DNA of 64,000 bases from Blastomonas fulva (GTDB lineage Bacteria > Pseudomonadota > Alphaproteobacteria > Sphingomonadales > Sphingomonadaceae): assembly GCF_003431825.1 (NCBI RefSeq), contig NZ_CP020083.1, positions 3,324,501 to 3,388,500 of the forward strand, written 5' to 3'. The notes beneath the pieces are model-generated. The model ran no database searches. It saw nothing but the letters and a program-made list of their open reading frames with translations, and was not told the DNA's origin. This document shows, piece by piece, positions 52,497-62,724 of this stretch (its first letter is position 1; every line of letters begins with the position of its first letter). Position numbers and translations under genes: made by a program.

Positions 52497-52523
52497 GACT
52501 GCCTGAGCCACGCTCAGGCAGTC
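52497..52523. terminator. Hairpin between cysQ and the convergent coq4-like gene
   Basis: GACTGCCTGAG pairs perfectly with CTCAGGCAGTC around CCACG. The right arm includes the stop codon of the coq4-like gene. No T-run follows, so efficiency is uncertain. Confidence 0.55.
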
Positions 52524-53296
52524 CGGGCCTTGCCGAGCAGGTCATAAGGATCGATGCCGCGCGCACGCAGCCGGTCGTGCGCCATCCCGTAAAACGCCGC
52601 CGGGGTGATGTTCAGCCGCTTGCGGGCCTGGGCCAGCGGCTCGGCGAGCAGCGACGCGATCGACTGCTCGGAAATGCGCGGGCACGCCTTGCCCAGCCGC
52701 TTCGCCTCGCCGATCGCCTTGAACACCGGCGCATCGCTGCGCACCGTCCGGGTCATGTTGAGTGCGCCCATATAGGCGATGAAGATGTTGCCGGGCGCGG
52801 GGTTCTGGCCATAGGTGAACGCCAGCACACACTGCTCGCCCAGCGCATCGCGGCCATAGCCGGTGAGCACATGCAGCAGGTCATGCGTGTCGCGCAGCCG
52901 GTTGATGTACCATTCGATCAGGTCGCCATAGCGGCGCCCCCTCTGGAACCGGTCGTATTCCTCGACCAGTCCGGCAGCGCTCAGCCCCTCGCGCTCCATG
53001 AAATCGACATAGGCATGCGCGACGCTCCCCTTGGGCATGGCGCGCAGCCTTGCATGATCGTCGAGCAGATCGGGCAGATAGGGCTCGCTCTCGCGCAGCG
53101 CCTTGCCGAAATCGCTGTAGACGAAGGCCTTCGCCTCATCGACGAGGCCCATCCGCGGGAGGCACTGGAAGATGTGGAACACCTGCTCGGTGTCTTCCTT
53201 GTCCGCCACCAGCTTGCGGAAATGGTGCATCGCCTTGAAGGGCCGAAACTTCGGCACGGGGCGGTCGGGATGGCGAAACACGGCGTCTGTCATCAT
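52514..53296 (-). CDS. Coq4-family protein
   Basis: The 260-aa protein carries the Coq4 zinc-type motif HDxxH-x11-E in DTHDLLHVLTGYGRDALGEQ. A C-terminal region with FYGMAHDRLRARGIDPYDLL follows. Coq4 organises ubiquinone biosynthesis and, in recent work on the human protein, has been linked to decarboxylation of C1 of the ring. Alphaproteobacterial relatives may do the same, but no other ubiquinone genes are near. The start could be either of two adjacent Met codons (53296, 53293). Confidence 0.85.
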   Translation of the reverse strand: MMTDAVFRHPDRPVPKFRPFKAMHHFRKLVADKEDTEQVFHIFQCLPRMGLVDEAKAFVYSDFGKALRESEPYLPDLLDDHARLRAMPKGSVAHAYVDFMEREGLSAAGLVEEYDRFQRGRRYGDLIEWYINRLRDTHDLLHVLTGYGRDALGEQCVLAFTYGQNPAPGNIFIAYMGALNMTRTVRSDAPVFKAIGEAKRLGKACPRISEQSIASLLAEPLAQARKRLNITPAAFYGMAHDRLRARGIDPYDLLGKARTA

Positions 53297-53392: not shown

Positions 53393-53962
53393 TCAGCGAG
53401 TGACGACATCGCGCTTCATCGGGGCAAGCTTGGAGAGGAGGCGGTTCTGCGCGGCAAAGCCGACCCGTTCATCCGCCATCGCCGCCTGCAGGTTCTCGAC
53501 CAGAACATTGAGATCATCGATCTGCAAACCGAGGTCGCGGTGCGATGTCGCCATGTCACGCCCGGTATAGTCGCATCCGGCATTGAGGATGTGGCAGAAC
53601 TGCTCGAACAGCGTGCGGCGCAGCCGGACCAGATCATGCGAGACGAAGACCTCCGAAATCCTCGGATCGACGATGGCGCGGTCGACCATGCCGTTGACGA
53701 CACGGCGTATGCCTTCCTGCCCGTGAAAGGCATCGCTCATGCCGGTGCCTGCAAACGGCGCAGCGCCGGCGTGCGCATTGGATGGCTGATAGGGATTGAC
53801 CGGAAGCTCCCCGGTCACCGGATCGCGCTGAGGCTCGGGCTTGGCTGCGGCTTCGGCTTCGGCTTCAGCTTCGCTTTGGCTCTCGCTGGCGATGTCGGGC
53901 ACGGCATCCACCGGCATGTCCTGGAAGCTGGCCAGTGTGAGGGCAAAGATGAGGCTGATCAT
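53393..53962 (-). CDS. Truncated haemoglobin (group 1-like) with export signal
   Basis: The 189-aa protein has a short hydrophobic N-terminus (MISLIFALTLASF), an acidic Ala/Glu-rich linker and then a ~115-residue globin-like domain. The globin features are GQEGIRRVVNGMVDRAIVDPRI (A/B helices), a CD1-like Phe in EVFVSHD, the YTGRDM segment and the proximal-His region MATSHRDLGL. The usual B9-B10 Phe-Tyr pair is Met-Val here, so ligand stabilisation must differ. It probably binds haem in the periplasm. It lies 22 bases after the DUF3034 gene. The longer frame starting at 54058 lies in that gene and is not favoured. Confidence 0.75.
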   Translation of the reverse strand: MISLIFALTLASFQDMPVDAVPDIASESQSEAEAEAEAAAKPEPQRDPVTGELPVNPYQPSNAHAGAAPFAGTGMSDAFHGQEGIRRVVNGMVDRAIVDPRISEVFVSHDLVRLRRTLFEQFCHILNAGCDYTGRDMATSHRDLGLQIDDLNVLVENLQAAMADERVGFAAQNRLLSKLAPMKRDVVTR

Positions 53963-53984
53963 GTCCGTGGTCCTGTCCGGAATT

Positions 53985-54869
53985 TCAAAAGGCGGCCTGG
54001 AGCGAAAGAAACGCGCCGCGCTGCTTTTCGGCGGTCGCGACACTGCCGAGGTCGACATAGGCGGCGGTAACCGTGACGTTGCGGGTCAGGGCATAGGCGG
54101 CAAACAGGTCCACCCAGTCATCCTCGCGCGCGATGGCCAGGTTGTCGGGCTTGGTGCGATATTCGCCCCCGACCACGAACCGACGCGAGAACTGATAGGC
54201 GATCGAGCCTTCGAATTGCGGCTTGTGATTGTTCTGCGTCGCGCTGCCGAAGCCGAGCAGCCCGGCCTGGTTGGCCTTGGTGAACCGCACTGTCGCGTTG
54301 GCGAGCAGGCTGTGCGACAGGAATAGCTTGGTCGCGCTGATATAGAAATCGGTGCCATGCGGCGATGCGGCCCCGACCGCGGCGACGACCGCATCGTCGC
54401 TCGATCGTTTGTGCTGCACCCCGATGGCGATCTGCGGCATCAGCGGATCGCCATAGACGACATCGCCCGCCAGCTTCAGCTTGGCGCCGAAAACATCCTG
54501 GTTCAGCGTATATCCCCGCCCCAGGCCCAGCGCTGTTCCGATGTCGATGGTGTCGAGGTTCTGACGCGCATAGCTCAGTTCCAGCCGATCGAAAAAGCCC
54601 AGAGAGACGCCGTAGCTGGTCCAGTTGTAATCGGGCAGTTCGATGATCGTGCCGTGCGCCGACCCGCCGATGCCCTCCTGCGTCGCATTGCCCGCGATCG
54701 TGCTCCAGGTGGCCAGCCCGCCACCACCTGAACCCTCGATGGTGCTCACGCCGTTGGTCAGCAGCAGTTTGCCGCCGTTGCGCAGGTCCTGTGCATGCGC
54801 CGGAAGATTGGAAAGGGCGGCAAGGCCGATCAGGCACGCAAGGGTGCGCAGAGCAGGATGAACGTTCAT
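53985..54869 (-). CDS. DUF3034 outer-membrane protein
   Basis: The 294-aa precursor has a Sec signal peptide (LIGLAALSNLPAHAQD). The mature protein is built of alternating, amphipathic beta strands and ends with an aromatic residue (LSLQAAF), the classic C-terminal signature of outer-membrane barrels. GGGGLATWSTIAGN and the long strand series identify the DUF3034 family, which has no assigned function. It is divergent from the cupredoxin-like gene and probably co-transcribed with the haemoglobin gene. Confidence 0.82.
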   Translation of the reverse strand: MNVHPALRTLACLIGLAALSNLPAHAQDLRNGGKLLLTNGVSTIEGSGGGGLATWSTIAGNATQEGIGGSAHGTIIELPDYNWTSYGVSLGFFDRLELSYARQNLDTIDIGTALGLGRGYTLNQDVFGAKLKLAGDVVYGDPLMPQIAIGVQHKRSSDDAVVAAVGAASPHGTDFYISATKLFLSHSLLANATVRFTKANQAGLLGFGSATQNNHKPQFEGSIAYQFSRRFVVGGEYRTKPDNLAIAREDDWVDLFAAYALTRNVTVTAAYVDLGSVATAEKQRGAFLSLQAAF

Positions 54870-54893
54870 GACCGGCGGGTAATTCAGAACTGC

Positions 54894-54908
54894 CTAACCA
54901 AGAGTTAA
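54894..54908 (-). promoter_or_regulatory. Candidate CtrA box (CTAA-N7-TTAA) upstream of the DUF3034 gene
   Basis: The site reads CTAA, seven bases, TTAA on the plus strand, 25 bases before the DUF3034 start. It has the same form as the site at 21760-21774 and one mismatch to TTAA-N7-TTAA. Confidence 0.4.
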
Positions 54909-54953
54909 GCATGATGCCCCCAAATTGCCGCCAAATGTAAAATATGCAGAATC

Positions 54954-54977
54954 ACGGTTTTTGACGGCTTAAACCGT
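54954..54977 (+). promoter_or_regulatory. Inverted repeat with embedded TTGACG before the cupredoxin-like gene
   Basis: ACGGTTT and AAACCGT are separated by 10 bases that include TTGACG (54961-54966), a possible -35 element. The cupredoxin-like start is 57 bases further on. It may be an operator overlapping the promoter. Confidence 0.4.
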
Positions 54978-55033
54978 TGAGTTTCCTAACGGAAGCAGCA
55001 ACTTTTTAACTCTTGCGGGCTAGCTCCGAGAGG

Positions 55034-55678
55034 ATGACTACCCCCCGCGCCCCGTTCGTTGCCGCCCTCAGTGCCGCCGTTCTCGCCTGCCTTGCCGTGC
55101 CATCATCCCAGGCCGCAGGGCCCGCCACGCTGGCGCTCACCGTCCGGCAGGCCAGCGGTCTTCCCGTCCGCGATGCCGTGGTGATGGTGTACCCCAAGGC
55201 CGGCGCCTCCAGCGGGCCGATCCGCTTCGGTTGGAAATATGACATGGCGCAAGCGAACATCGCCTTCACCCCCGGAACGCTGATCGTCCCGGCGGGCGCC
55301 ACGGTGCGCTTCCCCAACCAGGACAAGGTACGTCACAGCATCTACAGCTTCTCCAAATCGGCCAAGATCGACATCCAGCTTTATGGTCGCGACGAGACCC
55401 GCAGCCACAGCTTCGCGGTGGCCGGCAGCGTCGCGCTGGGCTGCAAGATCCACGACCAGATGCGTGGCTATGTCAAGGTGGTCGACACCCCCTATGCCGC
55501 CAAGACCGATCACAACGGCCAGGTCCGCCTCGCCCAGCTTCCCGGTGGCGCGGCCGTCGTCAAGGTCTGGCATCCCGCGCTGCGCAGCCGCACCGGCGAG
55601 CACGAGGAAGCCGTGATGCTTGCTGCAGGCCAGCCGACCACGCGCGCGATCTCGGTCGATCTGCGTACCCAGAAGTAA
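55034..55678 (+). CDS. Cupredoxin-like exported protein (methylamine-utilisation type)
   Basis: The 214-aa precursor has a signal peptide (about 1-27, ending SSQAAG). The beta-sandwich domain has a type-1-copper ligand set: His101 in VRHSIYSFS and Cys137, His140, Met143 in GCKIHDQM. A Greek-key C-terminal part with the carboxypeptidase-regulatory-like QVRLAQLPGGAAVVKVWHP follows. It probably binds copper and carries electrons in the periplasm. The ATG is directly behind GAGAGG with little spacing, so the exact start is slightly uncertain. The GGDEF-EAL gene follows after 6 bases. Confidence 0.8.
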   Translation: MTTPRAPFVAALSAAVLACLAVPSSQAAGPATLALTVRQASGLPVRDAVVMVYPKAGASSGPIRFGWKYDMAQANIAFTPGTLIVPAGATVRFPNQDKVRHSIYSFSKSAKIDIQLYGRDETRSHSFAVAGSVALGCKIHDQMRGYVKVVDTPYAAKTDHNGQVRLAQLPGGAAVVKVWHPALRSRTGEHEEAVMLAAGQPTTRAISVDLRTQK

Positions 55679-55684
55679 CGCGCG

Positions 55685-58036
55685 ATGGACTCCTCCACCC
55701 TGCCGCTCCGCGGACGCTTCCGGTCGCTCGCCACCCGCATCACGGTCTGGTATGGCGTGGTGATCGCGCTCACCTTCGGCGCCTTCATCATCGTCGCGAC
55801 CGATGGGGTCGAGCGTTACGCCGAGAGCGTGGCCACCAAGGAAATGGCGACCAACGCCGCGACCTTCGACAAGATCCTGGAACTTCAGGCCAGGCAGATG
55901 CGGACGTCGGCGGACGTTCTGGCGGCAGATTTCGGGTTCCGCGAAGCTTTCGCACTCGACGACCAGCCGACCATCACCAGCGCGCTCGAAAGCCTGAGGG
56001 TCAGGGCGGGCGCTCCGCTGGCGATCATGATCCCGCTGCAGGGCGACTTCATCAGCACCGGCGCCCCGATGAACGCGACCGAACAGGACGCATTATGGGA
56101 GGCGGTCGATTCAGGGATCGATCGCGGCGTGTTCCAGGTGGGCGGTCGCTATCACAACGCGGTCGCCGCACCGATCCTCATCCCCGATCTGGCGGGCTGG
56201 CTGGTGCTGGCGAGGCCGCTCGATGCTGCCGCAATGCGCGAATTGGCGCGGCTCGCACCTGCAGGCATGTCAGCGCGGATCCGCGCGTCCGGCCCGCTGC
56301 CGGGCGGGATCGACCTGTCGCAGGCCAGCGGCAGGGCCCCGGTCGAAACGCGGCTCGATGGCGAACGCGTCCTCTACTGGTCGAAGCCCCTTCCCGCGCT
56401 CGACACCAGCCTCAAGCCCCGGGTGGTGCTGCGCTATGAGCTGAGCAGCGCGCTGGCCGAATACAACCCGATCAAATATCTGCTGCTGGCACTGAGCGCG
56501 GTGGGCCTGACCCTCTCGGTGCTGATCGGCGCATTCGTTTCGCGCGGGATCACCCGCCCGATCGCCACGCTGGAAAACGCCGCGCGTGAGATCAGTCGCG
56601 GGTCGCGCGATACGGTGTCGATCACCACCGATGACGAGGTCGGACGGCTTGCAGACAGCTTCAACTCGATGGTCGAATCGATCAAGGAGCGCGAGGAGCG
56701 GATCACCCATATCGCGCTGCACGACGAGCTGACCGGATTGCCCAACCGCAAGCTTTTCGCCGAGCAGCTGGAGTTCGCGCTTGGCAGGCGCGCCAGCACC
56801 CACCGCATCGCGATCATGTATTTCGATCTCGACAACTTCAAGGCGGTCAACGACACGCTGGGTCATCCCGTGGGTGACGAGCTGCTGCGCGCGGTTGCCG
56901 AGCGGCTTCGTACCAGCATGCCCGGCGCGCTGATCAGCCGCCAGGGCGGCGACGAATTTGCCATCCTGATCGACCAGATCGAACCCCATGCCAAGATCGC
57001 GCTGCTCGCGGACCGGGTCAGCGCGGTGTTCCACTCCGCCTTCCAGCTCTCCGACCACCGGCTCGAGACCAGCTCCAGCATCGGGATCGCTGTAGCGCCG
57101 ACGGATGGCGATTGCCCCGACGAGCTGATCAAGAATGCCGATCTCGCGCTCTATCGCGCAAAGAAGGAGGGCCGCAATTGCTCGTGCTTCTTCGAGCAAG
57201 CGATGGATCTCGAGGCCCGCAAGCGCCATCAGATGGAAATCGACATGCGCGAGGCGGTGCGCGAGGGGCAGTTCCTGCTGAATTACCAGCCGTTGTTCAG
57301 CCTCGAGAAAAACCGCGTCATGGGCTTTGAGGCGCTGGTCCGCTGGCAGCACCCTTTGCGTGGGCTAGTGTCACCCGCCGAGTTCATTCCGTTGGCCGAA
57401 GACACCGGCATGATCGTGCCGATCAGCGAATGGGTGCTCAACGAGGCCTGCCAGCGCGCGGGCCAATGGCCCGATGACATCCGCATCGCGGTGAACCTCT
57501 CGCCGGTGCTGTTCAAGAATGCCGGATTGCCGCTGCTGGTAATGCAGGCGCTCGACAAGGCCGGGCTCAAGCCCAACAGGCTCGAGCTCGAGGTGACCGA
57601 ATCGCTGTTCATCGACAACATCGAGCGCACCACCGCGATGCTCAATGCGCTGCGCGATTGCGGGGTCCGGATCGCGCTCGACGATTTCGGCACGGGATAC
57701 AGCTCACTCAATTACCTGCGCTCTTTCCCGTTCGACAAGATCAAGATCGACAAGAGCTTCGTCGACGATCTGGCGACCGACATCAGCTCGCAGGCGATCA
57801 TCGGCGCTATTACCGCGCTCGCCTCGGCGCTGGGGATGGAAACGATTGCCGAGGGCGTCGAGGACAAGGACCAGCTCGAGGCACTGCGCGCGCAGGGATG
57901 CTCGAACATCCAGGGCTATCTGTTCAGCCGTCCGGTCGGGATCGAGCTGGTCGATGCGATGATCGCCGACATGCGCTACACTCAGGCCGAGCCCGGCGAA
58001 GCCGCAGAGCACGGGAGGGCCCGCCGCGTCGCCTGA
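55685..58036 (+). CDS. Membrane c-di-GMP enzyme: sensor-HAMP-GGDEF-EAL
   Basis: The 783-aa protein has two membrane helices (about 20-40 and 262-285) that enclose a ~220-residue periplasmic sensor domain of CACHE-like type. A HAMP (about 285-335), GGDEF (motif at 421-425) and EAL (Glu549-Ala-Leu551) domain follow. Both catalytic domains look active: GGDEF is exact, and EAL has the VNLSP, EVTES, DDFGTG, KIDKSF and EGVED residues. There is no RxxD inhibitory site before GGDEF. It can probably make and break c-di-GMP in response to a periplasmic signal from the linked haem/copper proteins. Confidence 0.93.
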   Translation: MDSSTLPLRGRFRSLATRITVWYGVVIALTFGAFIIVATDGVERYAESVATKEMATNAATFDKILELQARQMRTSADVLAADFGFREAFALDDQPTITSALESLRVRAGAPLAIMIPLQGDFISTGAPMNATEQDALWEAVDSGIDRGVFQVGGRYHNAVAAPILIPDLAGWLVLARPLDAAAMRELARLAPAGMSARIRASGPLPGGIDLSQASGRAPVETRLDGERVLYWSKPLPALDTSLKPRVVLRYELSSALAEYNPIKYLLLALSAVGLTLSVLIGAFVSRGITRPIATLENAAREISRGSRDTVSITTDDEVGRLADSFNSMVESIKEREERITHIALHDELTGLPNRKLFAEQLEFALGRRASTHRIAIMYFDLDNFKAVNDTLGHPVGDELLRAVAERLRTSMPGALISRQGGDEFAILIDQIEPHAKIALLADRVSAVFHSAFQLSDHRLETSSSIGIAVAPTDGDCPDELIKNADLALYRAKKEGRNCSCFFEQAMDLEARKRHQMEIDMREAVREGQFLLNYQPLFSLEKNRVMGFEALVRWQHPLRGLVSPAEFIPLAEDTGMIVPISEWVLNEACQRAGQWPDDIRIAVNLSPVLFKNAGLPLLVMQALDKAGLKPNRLELEVTESLFIDNIERTTAMLNALRDCGVRIALDDFGTGYSSLNYLRSFPFDKIKIDKSFVDDLATDISSQAIIGAITALASALGMETIAEGVEDKDQLEALRAQGCSNIQGYLFSRPVGIELVDAMIADMRYTQAEPGEAAEHGRARRVA

Positions 58037-58157
58037 CCGGACTGGCCATTCCAGCCAAACCCATCAGACAGCTTTGACACGCATAATTGTCTGAGTTATT
58101 CCCAGGCGCCTCGAACGTCCGCACTCTGAGCGAGCGGGCGCAGCATGGAGGATGAAG

Positions 58158-59819
58158 ATGGCATCGCGGACAAAGCTGGGACTGATAACGGCAGCGGCCG
58201 GGCTCGCAGCGACGATGTCGCCGCTCGCGCTCGCCTCGCCCGCGCGGTTCGAGGAGTTTCGCTATGAGGGCCGCTCGCAGGAGCAGGTGACGGTGGGGCC
58301 GGGCCAATATCGCAACCCGGTGCTCTCGGGCTATTATCCCGATCCCTCGATCACCCGGGTGGGCGAGGATTACTATCTCGTCACCTCGACCTTCACTCAT
58401 TTTCCCGGCCTGCCGATCTTCCATTCGCGCGATCTGGTCACCTGGAAGCAGATCGGCAACGCCATCGACCGGCCCGGCCAGCTCGACTTCACCGGGCTTC
58501 AGGTGTCAAAGGGCGTGTTTGCTCCCGACATCTCCTGGCACGATGGCACCTTCTACATCGTCGGGACCTGTGTGGGGTGCCGGGACAATTTCTTTATCAC
58601 CGCCAAGAACCCCGCCGGCCCCTGGTCCGACCCGACATGGCTTCCGTTCGAAGGCATCGATCCGTCGATCCACTGGGACGGCGACAGGGCATACATCGTC
58701 AACAACCGCGCACCCGACGAGCCGCCGCGCTATGATGGCCACCGCGCGATCTGGATCCAGGAGTTCGACTGGCGGGCGGGCACGATGGTCGGCGAGAGCA
58801 CGCAGCTGGTCAATGGCGGCATCGACCTGCGTACCAAGCCGATCTGGATCGAGGGACCGCACATCATCCGCAAGGACGGCTTCTACTATCTGATCGCGGC
58901 AGAAGGCGGCACCGGCGACAAGCACAGCGAAGTGGTGCTGCGATCCTCCCAACTGCGCGGGCCTTACACGCCCTATGCCGGCAACCCCATTCTCAGCCAG
59001 CGCACGCTCGATCCCAGGCGGCCCAACCCGGTCACGTCGGCAGGGCACGCCAAGTTCGTCCAGACACCCGATGGCGAATGGTGGGCGACCTTCCTCGCCA
59101 CCCGGCCCTATGACGACGACACCTACAATATCGGCCGCGAGACATTCCTGCTGCCGGTGACGTGGCGCGCTGGCTGGCCACTCATTCTGCCTGATGGCGA
59201 ACGCATCCCCTTTGTCGCGAAGCGCCCTGCGCTTGCCGCCGACACCCCTGCCTCGCCGCCTCTGTCGGGCGACTTCGGCTATATCGACAGCTTCGATGGC
59301 CCTGCCCTCGCGCCGCAATGGCTGACGGTGCGGACGCCCAAGGCGCCTTTCCATCGGCTCGACCGCGGTGCGCTCGTGATCGAGGGCGCAGCGGCCATGG
59401 GCGACCAGAGCGGAGTGCCTGGCTTTATCGGCAGACGCCAGCAGCACCACATCGCCACCATGTCGACGGTGCTGGAATATGCCCCGGACAAGGATGGCGC
59501 CCGGGCCGGGCTGGCGGCCATGCAGTCCGACCAGTCCTTCCTCTTCTTCGGCATCACCCGCATGGAGGGCAAGCCGATGGTTGCGCTGTTCGTCCGCGAC
59601 CGGGCCGACGTAGATACGCTGGTGGCCGCGCATCCCCTGGAATCGCAGGGCCCGGTCACGCTTACCATCCGTGCCGACGGCGGCAATATGGCCTTCGACT
59701 ATGCGGCAGGCGGCCGGTCGCGCACGCTCAAGGCCGGTCTGGATGCCCGGTTCCTCAGCACCCGGCGGGCGCGCGGCTTCACCGGAACGCTGGTCGGCCC
59801 CTATGTCCACACCCCCTGA
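58158..59819 (+). CDS. Exported glycoside hydrolase family 43 enzyme
   Basis: The 553-aa enzyme has a signal peptide (about 1-27, SPLALASPA). The five-bladed propeller has the GH43 catalytic acids: Asp62 in YYPDPSI, Asp168 in GIDPSIHW and Glu232 in IEGPHII. A C-terminal beta-sandwich of the GH43_C2 type (from about residue 375) follows. It is typical of beta-xylosidases and arabinofuranosidases. The start at 58158 is chosen because GGAGG then has 6-base spacing. It supplies xylose for the cluster that follows. Confidence 0.9.
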   Translation: MASRTKLGLITAAAGLAATMSPLALASPARFEEFRYEGRSQEQVTVGPGQYRNPVLSGYYPDPSITRVGEDYYLVTSTFTHFPGLPIFHSRDLVTWKQIGNAIDRPGQLDFTGLQVSKGVFAPDISWHDGTFYIVGTCVGCRDNFFITAKNPAGPWSDPTWLPFEGIDPSIHWDGDRAYIVNNRAPDEPPRYDGHRAIWIQEFDWRAGTMVGESTQLVNGGIDLRTKPIWIEGPHIIRKDGFYYLIAAEGGTGDKHSEVVLRSSQLRGPYTPYAGNPILSQRTLDPRRPNPVTSAGHAKFVQTPDGEWWATFLATRPYDDDTYNIGRETFLLPVTWRAGWPLILPDGERIPFVAKRPALAADTPASPPLSGDFGYIDSFDGPALAPQWLTVRTPKAPFHRLDRGALVIEGAAAMGDQSGVPGFIGRRQQHHIATMSTVLEYAPDKDGARAGLAAMQSDQSFLFFGITRMEGKPMVALFVRDRADVDTLVAAHPLESQGPVTLTIRADGGNMAFDYAAGGRSRTLKAGLDARFLSTRRARGFTGTLVGPYVHTP

Positions 59820-59878
59820 CCCGCGCCATCTTTGTTCGATCTGATGCTACGCGCTTGACAAGCCCGCCAAAAGTATGA

Positions 59879-59892
59879 TGGTAGCGCTATCA
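59879..59892 (+). promoter_or_regulatory. XylR-like operator (TGGTAGCGCTATCA) before the xylose genes
   Basis: A nearly perfect palindrome with core TAGCGCTA lies 22 bases before the xylX start and downstream of TTGACA (59855-59860). LacI-family XylR of Caulobacter binds sites of this form in xylose promoters. Confidence 0.7.
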
Positions 59893-59914
59893 CAAGAACA
59901 GCAAGGTGTTTTAC

Positions 59915-61048
59915 ATGGAGGGGGATCCCCAAGCTAATCGGTCGGCGATGCCCGACGACTGGATGACGGGCGTGTTCGCCGGGCGCAGATTGACCGAGGT
60001 CGGCCCCAGCCCCTTTCTGGTCGTAGGCGGCGAGCTGTACGACATGGCGCAGGTCGCCCCCACCATGACAGCCTTGATCGAGCGTGGCGATTTTACCGGC
60101 AATGGCGGCGAGCATCTCGGCCGCTTCGCATTTGCAGACGAACATCTGCTCAGCCCGGTCGATCTGCAGTGCATCAAGGCGTGCGGCGTCACCTTTGCGG
60201 TCTCGGCGATCGAACGAGTGATCGAGGAGAGCGCGCGCGGCGACTGGAATGCGGCGTCCGCGATCCGCGAGCGGCTGGAAACCCGCGTCGGCGGCTCGAT
60301 CCGCTCGGTCGTTCCAGGCTCGGCCGAAGCCGCCGCACTCAAGACTGCCCTGATCGAAGACGGGCTGTGGTCGCAATATCTGGAAGTTGCGATCGGCCCC
60401 GATGCCGAGGTGTTCACCAAGGCGCCCGTGCTTGCCTCGGTCGGCGCCGATGCGGCGATCGGCATCCGCTCCGATTCCCACTGGAACAATCCCGAGCCGG
60501 AGATTGCCCTGCTGGTGAGCAGCGCCGGCAATCCGGTCGGCGCAATGCTGGGCAATGATGTCAACCTGCGCGATTTCGAGGGCCGGTCGGCGCTGCTACT
60601 GGGCAAGGCCAAGGACAACAATGCATCGTGCGCACTCGGCCCGCTGGTGCGCCTGTTCGACAGCAGCTTCACGCTCGACGACGTCCGCCAGGCCGATGTG
60701 CGCCTGACCATCACCGGCGAGGACGGCTTCGTCCTCAACGGCGAAAGCAACATGCGCGAGATCAGCCGCGACCCGCTCGATCTGGTGCGCCAGACGCTGA
60801 GCGAGCACCAGTATCCCGATGGCTTCGTGCTGTTCATGGGCACGTTGTTCGCCCCGGTCGAGGACCGCGACGAGCCCGGGCGGGGATTCACCCACAAGGT
60901 GGGCGACATCGTCGCTATCGAGAACCGCAAGCTGGGTCGGCTGGTCAACACTGTGGTGACCTCTCGCGATGCACCGCCCTGGCAGATGGGCATCGGCGCG
61001 CTGATGGCCAATCTGGCAGGCCGTGGCCTGCTGCGGGGTGCGGCATGA
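59915..61048 (+). CDS. xylX: 2-keto-3-deoxy-D-xylonate dehydratase, fumarylacetoacetase family
   Basis: The 377-aa enzyme has the fumarylacetoacetate-hydrolase-like fold with metal ligands around EPEIALLVS and GNDVNLRDFEGRS. The KAKDNNASCALGP segment is typical of the XylX/2-keto-3-deoxy-sugar-acid dehydratase branch. In the Weimberg pathway it turns 2-keto-3-deoxyxylonate into alpha-ketoglutarate semialdehyde. The ATG at 59915 is preferred over a GTG nine bases upstream because AAGG then has an 8-base spacing. Its stop overlaps xylB (ATGA). Confidence 0.85.
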   Translation: MEGDPQANRSAMPDDWMTGVFAGRRLTEVGPSPFLVVGGELYDMAQVAPTMTALIERGDFTGNGGEHLGRFAFADEHLLSPVDLQCIKACGVTFAVSAIERVIEESARGDWNAASAIRERLETRVGGSIRSVVPGSAEAAALKTALIEDGLWSQYLEVAIGPDAEVFTKAPVLASVGADAAIGIRSDSHWNNPEPEIALLVSSAGNPVGAMLGNDVNLRDFEGRSALLLGKAKDNNASCALGPLVRLFDSSFTLDDVRQADVRLTITGEDGFVLNGESNMREISRDPLDLVRQTLSEHQYPDGFVLFMGTLFAPVEDRDEPGRGFTHKVGDIVAIENRKLGRLVNTVVTSRDAPPWQMGIGALMANLAGRGLLRGAA

Positions 61049-61836
61049 CCAGCACGACGATATTGCAGGCAGACCAGTTGCAGTCGGGGTTCGACTCCGC
61101 CATCTATCCCAGCCTTTCGGGCAAGCGGGTACTCGTTACCGGAGGCGCCACCGGAATCGGCGCTGCGCTGGTGGAACGGTTTGTCCAGCAAGACGCGCAT
61201 GTCGCTTTCGTCGACGTCAACCATGCAGCGGGCCATGCGCTTGCCGCCCGGCTGGCGGGGACGCATTTCGTCCATTGCGACCTGCGCGATATCGATGCGC
61301 TCAAGGCCTGTCTTGACGGTGTGAGGGCCGAACTGGGCGGGATCGACATCCTGCTCAACAACGCCGCCAATGACGACCGTCACACGGTGATGGAGGTGAC
61401 GCCCGATTACTGGGATGACCGCATGGCCACCAATCTGCGCCACCTGTTCTTCGCCGCGCAGGCTGTGGTGCCGGCGATGCAGGCCGCTGGCGGCGGCGTG
61501 ATCATCAACTTCGGGTCGATCAGCTGGCATCTGGGGCTGGCGGATCTGGTGCTGTACCAGACCGCCAAGGCCGCGATCGAGGGAATGACCCGGGGGCTGG
61601 CGCGCGATCTCGGGCGCGACAACATCCGCGTCACCACCATCGTGCCCGGCAATGTGCAGACCCCGCGCCAGGAGCAATGGTACACCCCCGAAGGCGAGGC
61701 CGAGATCGTCGCCGCACAGTGCCTGAGCGAGCGGATCCAGCCCGACGATGTCGCAGCACTGGCGCTGTTCCTCGCCTCGGACGATGCGCGGATGTGCACC
61801 GGTCACGAATACTTCGTCGATGCAGGCTGGCGCTGA
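61045..61836 (+). CDS. xylB: NAD-dependent D-xylose dehydrogenase (short-chain dehydrogenase)
   Basis: The 263-aa SDR enzyme has the dinucleotide motif TGGATGIG (32-39), NNA in the central sheet, the catalytic Ser (FGSISWHLG) and YQTAK (YxxxK). Stretches such as GGGVIINFGSISWHLGLADL and RQEQWYTPEGEAEIVAAQCL are near-identical to Caulobacter XylB. It oxidises D-xylose to D-xylonolactone. It is coupled to xylX upstream and xylC downstream. Confidence 0.92.
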   Translation: MTSTTILQADQLQSGFDSAIYPSLSGKRVLVTGGATGIGAALVERFVQQDAHVAFVDVNHAAGHALAARLAGTHFVHCDLRDIDALKACLDGVRAELGGIDILLNNAANDDRHTVMEVTPDYWDDRMATNLRHLFFAAQAVVPAMQAAGGGVIINFGSISWHLGLADLVLYQTAKAAIEGMTRGLARDLGRDNIRVTTIVPGNVQTPRQEQWYTPEGEAEIVAAQCLSERIQPDDVAALALFLASDDARMCTGHEYFVDAGWR

Positions 61837-61837
61837 C

Positions 61838-62698
61838 ATGACCGTCCAGTCGGTCCTGCCCGTCGGCGCGATGCTGGGCGAAGGGCCGGTCTGGACCGGC
61901 GATGCGCTGTGGTTCGTCGACATCAAGGGACGGGCCGTCCATCGCTTCGACCCTGGAGATGGCTCCAGCCAGGCATGGTCCGCGCCTGATCAGGTCGGCT
62001 GGGTGTTGCCTGCCGAGGCGGGCGACATGATCGCCGGGGTCAAGACCGGGTTGCACCGCTTCGATCCTGTCACCGGCAGCTTCGCGCTGCTGCACGATCC
62101 CGAGCCGGATTATCCCGGCAACCGGCTGAACGATGCCGCCACCGACCGCACCGGGCGGCTGTGGTTCGGAAGCATGGATGATGGCGAGGCGGCGATGACC
62201 GGGCGGCTGTATCGCTGCGACGGCGGCGCGTGCCGCGACACGCGCCTGCCCCCGGTTGCGATCACCAACGGCCCAGCGATCAGCGCCGATGGCCGCACGC
62301 TGTATCACACCGACACGCTGGGCAAGACCATCTGGCGCGTCGCAATTGCGGACGATGGCGCGCTGGGCGCACCCGAACGCCATATCGTGGTCGGCAAAGC
62401 TGAGGGCTATCCCGATGGATCGGTGATCGATGCCGAGGGCTGTCTGTGGGTTGCGTTCTACGGCGGATGGGGCGTGCGGCGGTACGATCCTTCGGGCCGG
62501 ATGATGCGTTTTGTGCGCTTTCCGGTGGCCAATGTCACCAAGATCGCGTTTGGCGGAGCGAACCTGACAACGGCTTATGCAACGAGCGCGCGCAAGGGGT
62601 TGGATAATGCCGCGCTCGAGGCGCAGCCGCTGGCAGGTCATCTGTTCACGTTCGATCCCGGCGTTGCCGGACTGCCGGTAACCCCGGCCAAGATATAA
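61838..62698 (+). CDS. xylC: Xylonolactonase, SMP-30/gluconolactonase family
   Basis: The 286-aa propeller enzyme has the SMP-30 metal-site segments LGEGPVW (Glu), NRLNDAATDRTGRLWFGSMDD (Asn, Asp) and YPDGSVIDAEGCLWVAF (Asp). It opens xylonolactone to xylonate, the second step. The start one base after the xylB stop gives the family length (Caulobacter XylC is ~289). Confidence 0.9.
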   Translation: MTVQSVLPVGAMLGEGPVWTGDALWFVDIKGRAVHRFDPGDGSSQAWSAPDQVGWVLPAEAGDMIAGVKTGLHRFDPVTGSFALLHDPEPDYPGNRLNDAATDRTGRLWFGSMDDGEAAMTGRLYRCDGGACRDTRLPPVAITNGPAISADGRTLYHTDTLGKTIWRVAIADDGALGAPERHIVVGKAEGYPDGSVIDAEGCLWVAFYGGWGVRRYDPSGRMMRFVRFPVANVTKIAFGGANLTTAYATSARKGLDNAALEAQPLAGHLFTFDPGVAGLPVTPAKI

Positions 62699-62724
62699 TG
62701 AGACCATAAAAAGGAGCAGGAGAG

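Follow-up and report, generated by a model that had tools for sequence, protein, structure and literature searches.

Systems in which a membrane enzyme of cyclic diguanylate (c-di-GMP) metabolism is controlled from the cell envelope are the closest described parallels to the four-gene module analysed here, which lies in a 64,000-nucleotide stretch of Blastomonas fulva DNA (contig NZ_CP020083.1, positions 3,324,501 to 3,388,500; this whole stretch is called the window below). The module consists of two divergent gene pairs: on the minus strand a DUF3034 barrel gene followed by a gene for a group I truncated globin, and on the plus strand genes for a cupredoxin and a dCache-HAMP-GGDEF-EAL receptor enzyme. 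On the evidence of its sequences we read it, with a probability of about one half, as a conserved envelope module of two dyads, in which a haem and copper redox or gas sensing chain would set c-di-GMP breakdown. In working mode it would be similar to envelope-controlled c-di-GMP receptors such as YfiBNR. In that system YfiN is not known to have an EAL domain, and YfiR and YfiB are not known to carry a haem or copper site. The available part of PMC2837407 describes, in Pseudomonas aeruginosa, a c-di-GMP enzyme of the membrane that is controlled by a component of the outer membrane and a small protein of the periplasm, which is the likeness to the module; however, YfiB is not a barrel but an OmpA/Pal-like lipoprotein, and the enzyme YfiN is a diguanylate cyclase. 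YfiBNR also has no globin, and none of the four proteins studied here matches the YfiR or OmpA families of Pfam, while an EAL domain is present. The second parallel is DosP, where haem chemistry controls a GGDEF-EAL phosphodiesterase, as is proposed here. The haem domain of DosP is cytoplasmic and fused to the enzyme, whereas the globin of the module is separate, truncated and apparently exported, and the NCBIfam DosP model matches the receptor through the GGDEF-EAL part only (335 bits against a cut-off of 857).

The first-pass annotation of this DNA knew of no described pathway that uses the four genes together, and our search of the open-access subset of PubMed Central, which did not cover preprints, likewise found none; nor did it find any function proposed for DUF3034, or any report that exported truncated globins, or the 'methylamine utilization' cupredoxin, take part in signalling. 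The mentions of DUF3034 encountered there are in a retron text, whose available part otherwise speaks of DUF3037, and in the available part of a Streptomyces gene table, and they give no function; the accessible parts of PMC1592074, PMC11102522 and PMC9756655 do not describe the module. ZMO_1055 of Zymomonas was considered as a characterized relative and rejected, as it is a PAS-GGDEF-EAL protein according to the available part of PMC12900916.

The association of the four genes is real and, in all likelihood, functional. We surveyed 138 DUF3034 loci, comprising 58 genome stretches and 80 named loci, the latter being the best-scoring of 589 and biased to close relatives. A few genomes are represented among both the stretches and the named loci (L088/L129 and L094/L180 are examples), and two loci, L091 and L114, are broken copies. 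The globin gene adjoins DUF3034 in the same direction at 134 of the 138 loci, the other four being two contig ends (L088, L129), the broken L091, and L179, in which none was found. When the module is scored as complete if the cupredoxin and receptor profiles reach at least 60 bits within 7.5 kb, all four genes are together at 94 of the 138 loci (33/58 and 61/80), in several orders. The first-pass annotation had named such a conserved neighbourhood as the check on its proposal, and both the neighbourhood and the four genes, with their positions and strands, are borne out by sequence, Pfam and copper ligands. Seventy-five loci have the divergent order of the window, and at 14 the cupredoxin and receptor genes lie upstream on the same strand as DUF3034 and the globin; of these 14, 11 are outside the window's class (L092-L108) and three are alphaproteobacterial (L161, L163, L175). 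L163 and L175 have two cupredoxins each, one by DUF3034 and the other with a GGDEF-EAL receptor a few kb off. The receptor gene is inverted within the divergent order at four loci, and at one locus (L098) cupredoxin and receptor lie downstream of the globin. A receptor match of 60 bits is absent from the range at five loci with a cupredoxin downstream of the globin and at six with a divergent cupredoxin. Single-linkage clustering of the open reading frames (ORFs) of 50 chosen loci, whose neighbours are not all annotated, placed DUF3034 in 50, the globin in 49, the cupredoxin in 27 and the GGDEF-EAL protein in 22; of the other clusters, several appear, by reading of the sequences, to be antisense ORFs of the four genes, a kinase-containing one is present in seven loci, and the rest are in at most six loci each. 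No fusions among the four proteins were seen among the best 120 of 6886 DUF3034 and the best 120 of 1428 cupredoxin homologues, the globin not having been searched for fusions.

Genome-wide co-occurrence extends the association beyond gene adjacency. DUF3034 is present in 25 of 299 Pseudomonadota genomes (22 of 154 genera). The globin profile matches 113 of these 299 genomes at an E-value of 0.001, and scores of at least 140 bits, a cut-off set by eye at a gap in the scores, are found in all 25 genomes with DUF3034 and in a single one of the 274 without it (G345), the next score being 92.7. The cupredoxin profile matches 68 of the 299 at the same E-value, and at a by-eye cut-off of 160 bits it is found in 24 of the 25 DUF3034 genomes, even when encoded elsewhere, versus 8 of the 274 others. 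Profiles A3 and A4 include sequences from some of the searched genomes, which widens the score gap. In a second set of 196 genomes, from the window's order, DUF3034 is present in 35; globins of at least 100 bits (again a gap chosen by eye) are found in 34 of these versus one of the 161 without DUF3034 (G046), the genome lacking the globin (G159) having its DUF3034 gene at a contig end, and cupredoxins in 31 versus 16. Here the profile (A6) was built from named-contig sequences and the window, some from species that are also in the order set. One genome, G001, counts as cupredoxin-positive on two fragments, which score 117 and 111 bits and lie on separate contigs. Fisher tests on all these counts ignore phylogeny, so that related genomes are treated as if independent. 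Family f35 contains many small-genome assemblies with one to four truncated globins, often adjacent and mostly of 40-75 bits, and these are without DUF3034.

Judged by gene content, the module is composed of two separable dyads, barrel plus globin and cupredoxin plus receptor, which can sit apart or occur singly. In three genomes (G403, G413, G446) cupredoxin and receptor genes are side by side on a different contig from DUF3034, and in two more (G049, G082) they are paired and apart from it. The barrel and globin, in turn, decay together: G179 retains a 21-residue DUF3034 remnant by a truncated globin, G077 has lost DUF3034 and keeps a globin remnant of under 40 residues, and in G194 both genes are broken. 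In G046 and G345, whose globins look intact, tblastn of the 10 and 18 kb surrounding the gene found no DUF3034 remnant, and lone globins are therefore not all decaying. A chance or hitchhiking neighbourhood with no functional link might draw on the inflation of counts by related genomes, some of which stand twice among the 138 loci; but the several gene orders, the unlinked yet co-retained dyads, the co-decay and the phylum-wide co-occurrence make this explanation highly improbable.

The receptor matches the Pfam models for EAL (250 bits), GGDEF (148 bits), HAMP (46 bits) and dCache_3, the last at 28 bits, about 2 bits above its cut-off of 25.7. An AlphaFold2 model of residues 1-330 has a mean predicted local distance difference test score (pLDDT) of 92.3, and with it Foldseek retrieves the dCache receptors McpB/C, McpH and PctA; the first-pass description of a membrane GGDEF-EAL protein with a periplasmic domain is thereby upheld. 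The dCache region carries a strongly conserved motif, DFGFR...D..T..SA......R, and across 47 sequences D82, G84, R86, A88, D93, T96, S99, A100 and R107 are invariant. Its structural matches bind amino acids and urate. Ninety-seven receptors were aligned, of which four are histidine kinases (L058, L059, L170, L181), one (L144) is truncated where its contig stops and 92 are GGDEF-EAL proteins. All eight catalytic or metal-binding EAL positions are intact in 92/92, including the window, while the GGDEF motif is intact in 59/92 and degenerate in about a third. As the EAL domain is kept throughout and the GGDEF motif is not, the conserved output is likely to be a lowering of c-di-GMP by the EAL phosphodiesterase; of the c-di-GMP output claimed at first, breakdown is conserved and synthesis is not. 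The window's own GGDEF domain, with its intact motif, could be active or regulatory.

In the cupredoxin, the Cys, His and Met ligands, with the spacing Cys-x2-His-x2-Met, are each present in 105 of 105 sequences and the remaining His in 104. Pfam gave only a below-cut-off match to CarboxypepD_reg, and sequence searches of the PDB gave weak matches to the blue copper protein 5fc9 and to amicyanin (best E-value 0.0017); the ligands together with these matches predict a type 1 copper fold. Among the best 120 of the 1428 homologues the nearest relatives are from Blastomonas. Public databases name the protein 'methylamine utilization protein' or 'plastocyanin'. The spacing of His and Cys-x2-His-x2-Met is indeed that of the MauL-like or amicyanin-type proteins, but the partner here is a dCache-HAMP receptor, and the first of the two names appears to lack support in the context seen: there is no methylamine dehydrogenase among the Pfam matches of seven window proteins, although no genome search for mau genes was made.

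The receptor is the most constant partner of the cupredoxin, and this dyad is also found in genomes without DUF3034. What varies is the output. In genomes with no DUF3034 match, the same cupredoxin family lies by a dCache_3-HAMP class III cyclase (L264, L265) or a dCache_3-HAMP Ser/Thr kinase (L269). At L058, L170 and L181 the sensor differs as well, being 4HB_MCP, and the output is a histidine kinase; at L058 and L170 this kinase is accompanied, beside the barrel and globin, by a small cupredoxin of another kind whose ligand pattern is unchanged. Similarly, in two of the four cupredoxin-negative order genomes (G043 and G067, with loci L058 and L059) a small cupredoxin of another subfamily lies by a kinase-type gene adjoining the globin, that of L058 being confirmed by a Pfam scan and a ligand check. 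Because the periplasmic partner stays constant while the outputs change, the cupredoxin looks like a part of the input side. Alternatively, it might report periplasmic copper to the dCache receptor, with the barrel as a pore for metal or small solutes and the globin as an accessory. We consider this quite unlikely, since the ligand set is, from knowledge of the family, that of a type 1 electron-transfer site and not of an exchangeable sensor site; moreover, no ORF cluster other than the four genes, their antisense ORFs and the kinase cluster exceeds six of the 50 clustered loci, although single loci with partly annotated neighbours may hold a copper gene.

The DUF3034 protein matches PF11231 at 326 bits (cut-off 25), and its model (pLDDT 81.7) has 12 strands, predicted to be antiparallel and even in number, with an export signal ahead of them; the outer-membrane barrel of the first-pass annotation is supported on both counts. 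Foldseek and VIA-align place the model among outer-membrane barrels, with FapF, KdgM, COG4313 and NanC on top by Z-score, and some of the fold matches are pores or channels for solutes (KdgM, NanC, COG4313, FadL); a sequence-profile search found no solved structure for DUF3034. With FapF, KdgM, NanC and the COG4313 channel it shares the predicted 12-stranded barrel fold, and the FapF alignment starts before the first strand, at model residue 34; it differs from all four in having 9-15% identity to them and a globin as its partner gene. The residues invariant in 53 sequences (L35, G40, G46, G49, G51, W55) fall in a Gly-rich N-terminal segment most of which is not resolved in the model (residues 23-50 have a pLDDT below 50). 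This stretch may be a plug or docking segment, and we would guess that the globin docks there. The pore-like matches, along with the amino acid- and urate-binding relatives of the dCache domain, would also accommodate a scheme in which a small solute enters through the barrel and is bound directly by the dCache domain, with globin and cupredoxin maintaining a given redox state of the solute or of the envelope. This is unlikely, as it leaves unexplained the cupredoxins that accompany receptors with other outputs and without a barrel.

The window globin matches Bac_globin (PF01152) at 25.9 bits (cut-off 21) and aligns with group I truncated haemoglobins of known structure, including 1dly and 1idr (best E-value 3e-7). 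The proximal His at F8 (H141) is kept in 134 of 134 relatives and Phe at CD1 (F106) in 129. In these features, and in belonging to the 2/2 globin sequence family, it agrees with the group I proteins of Mycobacterium tuberculosis (HbN), Chlamydomonas and cyanobacteria; it departs from them in its apparent export, in its distal side and in a Cys pair. A polar distal network with Tyr B10 is typical of group I truncated haemoglobins, although neither universal nor strictly defining, and it is absent from all 134 relatives: B10 is V in 83, L in 27, I in 14, M in 5, T in 2, A in 2 and N in 1, never Tyr, and E7 and E11 are restricted to L, F, V and I. Stable binding of O2 is usually disfavoured where the distal side has no hydrogen-bond donors, so that nitric oxide (NO) and carbon monoxide (CO) are left, and the apolar distal side of these globins therefore suggests NO or CO as the ligand. 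Cys123 and Cys130 occur as a pair in 125 relatives and are jointly missing from nine, with no case of a single one, which is the pattern expected of a disulfide. By simple pattern rules rather than a trained predictor, 134 of 135 globins have an N-terminal hydrophobic segment and 14 a lipobox, so that the globin is probably lipid-anchored in some relatives; many relatives outside the sphingomonads have textbook-looking signal peptides. The family of the truncated haemoglobin and its predicted haem ligand thus hold, and a periplasmic haem protein is well supported by these features, but the export of the window's own copy rests on homology, because its hydrophobic stretch is short and atypical, with no positive N-terminus.

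This globin could alternatively belong to a respiratory or detoxification chain, the main rival to sensing, in which a cupredoxin or a high-potential iron-sulfur protein (HiPIP) would pass electrons to the globin for the turnover of NO, peroxide or O2 on the periplasmic side of the barrel, with the EAL protein reading the carrier pool or merely being co-regulated. HbN uses Tyr B10 and Gln E11 in NO dioxygenation; at the positions given by alignment, these residues are in none of the 134 relatives, which counts against this chain. The cupredoxin family is one of electron carriers, and HiPIP-like genes come right after the globin at L169 (9334-9669) and L184 (5069-5392), where the usual cupredoxin was not found nearby, albeit with weak Pfam scores of 20.8 and 22.5 bits against a cut-off of 22. 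Reduction of O2 by a periplasmic truncated haemoglobin has been proposed for cable bacteria, according to the available part of PMC12093952. Nevertheless, the pairing of receptor and cupredoxin without the globin fits signalling better than catalysis, and the NO-related NnrS is not enriched (a hand count in the phylum set gave 12 of the 25 genomes with DUF3034 and 156 of the 274 without it), leaving an NO link unsupported. We regard such a chain as doubtful, though it is the alternative to be taken most seriously.

The divergent promoter adds a regulatory element. The hexamer TTAACC is present in 47 of 85 divergent promoter regions, where shuffled sequences would give 5.7, and in 30 of 51 module gaps; in the remaining divergent gaps at these loci the figure is 10 of 170, the gene calls being rough. 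It is the core of the CtrA half-site consensus TTAACCAT, as given in the available parts of PMC3692519 and PMC6180460. The window promoter lacks TTAACC and has instead the near-complete CtrA-like site listed in Table 1. This points to putative CtrA-type sites as a tendency of the alphaproteobacterial promoter, by which the module would sit with motility and cell-cycle genes in these bacteria and be co-regulated with them. Two other elements of the window intergenic region are not conserved, an ACGG-N6-CCGT palindrome (2 of 86 regions) and the 10-mer TTAACTCTTG (1 of 86).

Table 1. Features of the module in window coordinates.
Feature	Position	Strand	Basis or remark
Group I truncated haemoglobin, predicted exported	53393..53962	-	His141 (F8) codon 53540-53542; Cys123/Cys130 pair
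DUF3034 outer-membrane beta-barrel, predicted 12 strands, N-terminal signal-like helix	53985..54869	-	
DUF3034 Gly-rich N-terminal stretch, residues 33-60, before first strand	54690..54773	-	
Putative CtrA-like site TTAA-N7-TTAG upstream of DUF3034	54893..54908	-	One mismatch to TTAA-N7-TTAA
Type 1 copper cupredoxin, predicted secreted	55034..55678	+	Ligand set; publicly named as given in the text
Transmembrane dCache-HAMP-GGDEF-EAL receptor enzyme, 783 residues	55685..58036	+	Pfam; AlphaFold2 model; Foldseek
Periplasmic dCache-like domain with DFGFR motif	55820..56470 (limits approximate)	+	Conserved residues; fold matches
GGDEF domain, motif intact in window	56714..57178	+	PF00990
EAL phosphodiesterase domain, eight catalytic positions kept	57245..57934	+	PF00563, 250 bits

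A 164-base gap (54870-55033) separates the starts of the DUF3034 and cupredoxin genes, and 6 bases separate the cupredoxin from the receptor gene. For the globin the ATG at 53962 is the most likely start, since the ORF as listed, from 54058, would overlap with DUF3034; for the cupredoxin the ATG at 55034 is the most likely start. Downstream of the globin, on the same strand, is a COQ4-like gene (52514-53296), which was considered as a fifth member and rejected, since the window's own locus is the only one of the 138 to have it. On the other side, 58152-62700 holds a GH43 glycosidase (Pfam) followed by ORFs that resemble sugar-acid catabolism by eye (a dehydrogenase, an SMP-30-like protein), perhaps a separate pentose-use cluster.

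Several observations have to be set against a sensing chain that joins the two dyads. As the dyads are separable, one need not feed the other: DUF3034 and the globin lack a cupredoxin or receptor of these types nearby at 27 of the 138 loci and at the broken L091 (upstream sequence is shorter than 2.5 kb in four of the 27, and one of these four, L181, has a histidine kinase downstream); G272 has barrel and globin with zero cupredoxin match; and cupredoxins are found without DUF3034 in the 8 phylum and 16 order genomes counted above. Five cupredoxins have no receptor match in the fetched stretch (L256, L261, L263, L266, L270), and some adjoin long ORFs without a Pfam match. In the periplasmic part of the receptor no alignment column has Cys or His in more than 30 of 97 sequences, and this part is therefore unlikely to hold a metal itself, and dCache domains usually bind small molecules directly. 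The atypical N-terminus of the window globin and the NnrS counts belong on the same side. By eye, long Pfam-less ORFs beside the cupredoxins of L256, L261 and L266 may be other outer-membrane barrels.

The first-pass proposal of a sensing chain feeding c-di-GMP consequently stands in part: the four genes co-occur and the EAL domain is kept throughout, but the dyads can part company, and a class III cyclase or a Ser/Thr or histidine kinase may take the place of the c-di-GMP enzyme. For the sensing chain itself we infer the protein contacts, the electron transfer, the direction of regulation and the signal as follows. A small redox-active molecule or gas would arrive at the globin haem at the outer membrane, and haem chemistry would determine which redox (or copper) state the cupredoxin pool takes. 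In one of its states the cupredoxin may bind the dCache domain as a dedicated periplasmic partner of the receptor; HAMP would then pass this state on to the EAL phosphodiesterase activity, and the resulting c-di-GMP shift would alter attachment or motility. A bolder and more speculative form of the same idea, which we hold to be dubious, would make the barrel and a disulfide-bearing, NO- or CO-selective globin an outer-membrane gas sensor, whose state would be handed over as electrons to the cupredoxin; this protein would act as a diffusible 'redox hormone' of the periplasm, read by a family of dCache receptors whose outputs can be exchanged (c-di-GMP, a class III cyclase, or a Ser/Thr or His kinase). 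If true, there would be a signalling class with an electron-transfer protein as the ligand of a transmembrane receptor.

The co-occurrence gives DUF3034, the exported globin and the cupredoxin one shared, testable role. It also indicates a possible way in which c-di-GMP, and thereby biofilm formation or motility, could come under the control of haem and copper chemistry that takes place outside the cytoplasm. If the redox state of the cupredoxin is the input of the receptor, this would be a new principle of transmembrane signalling.

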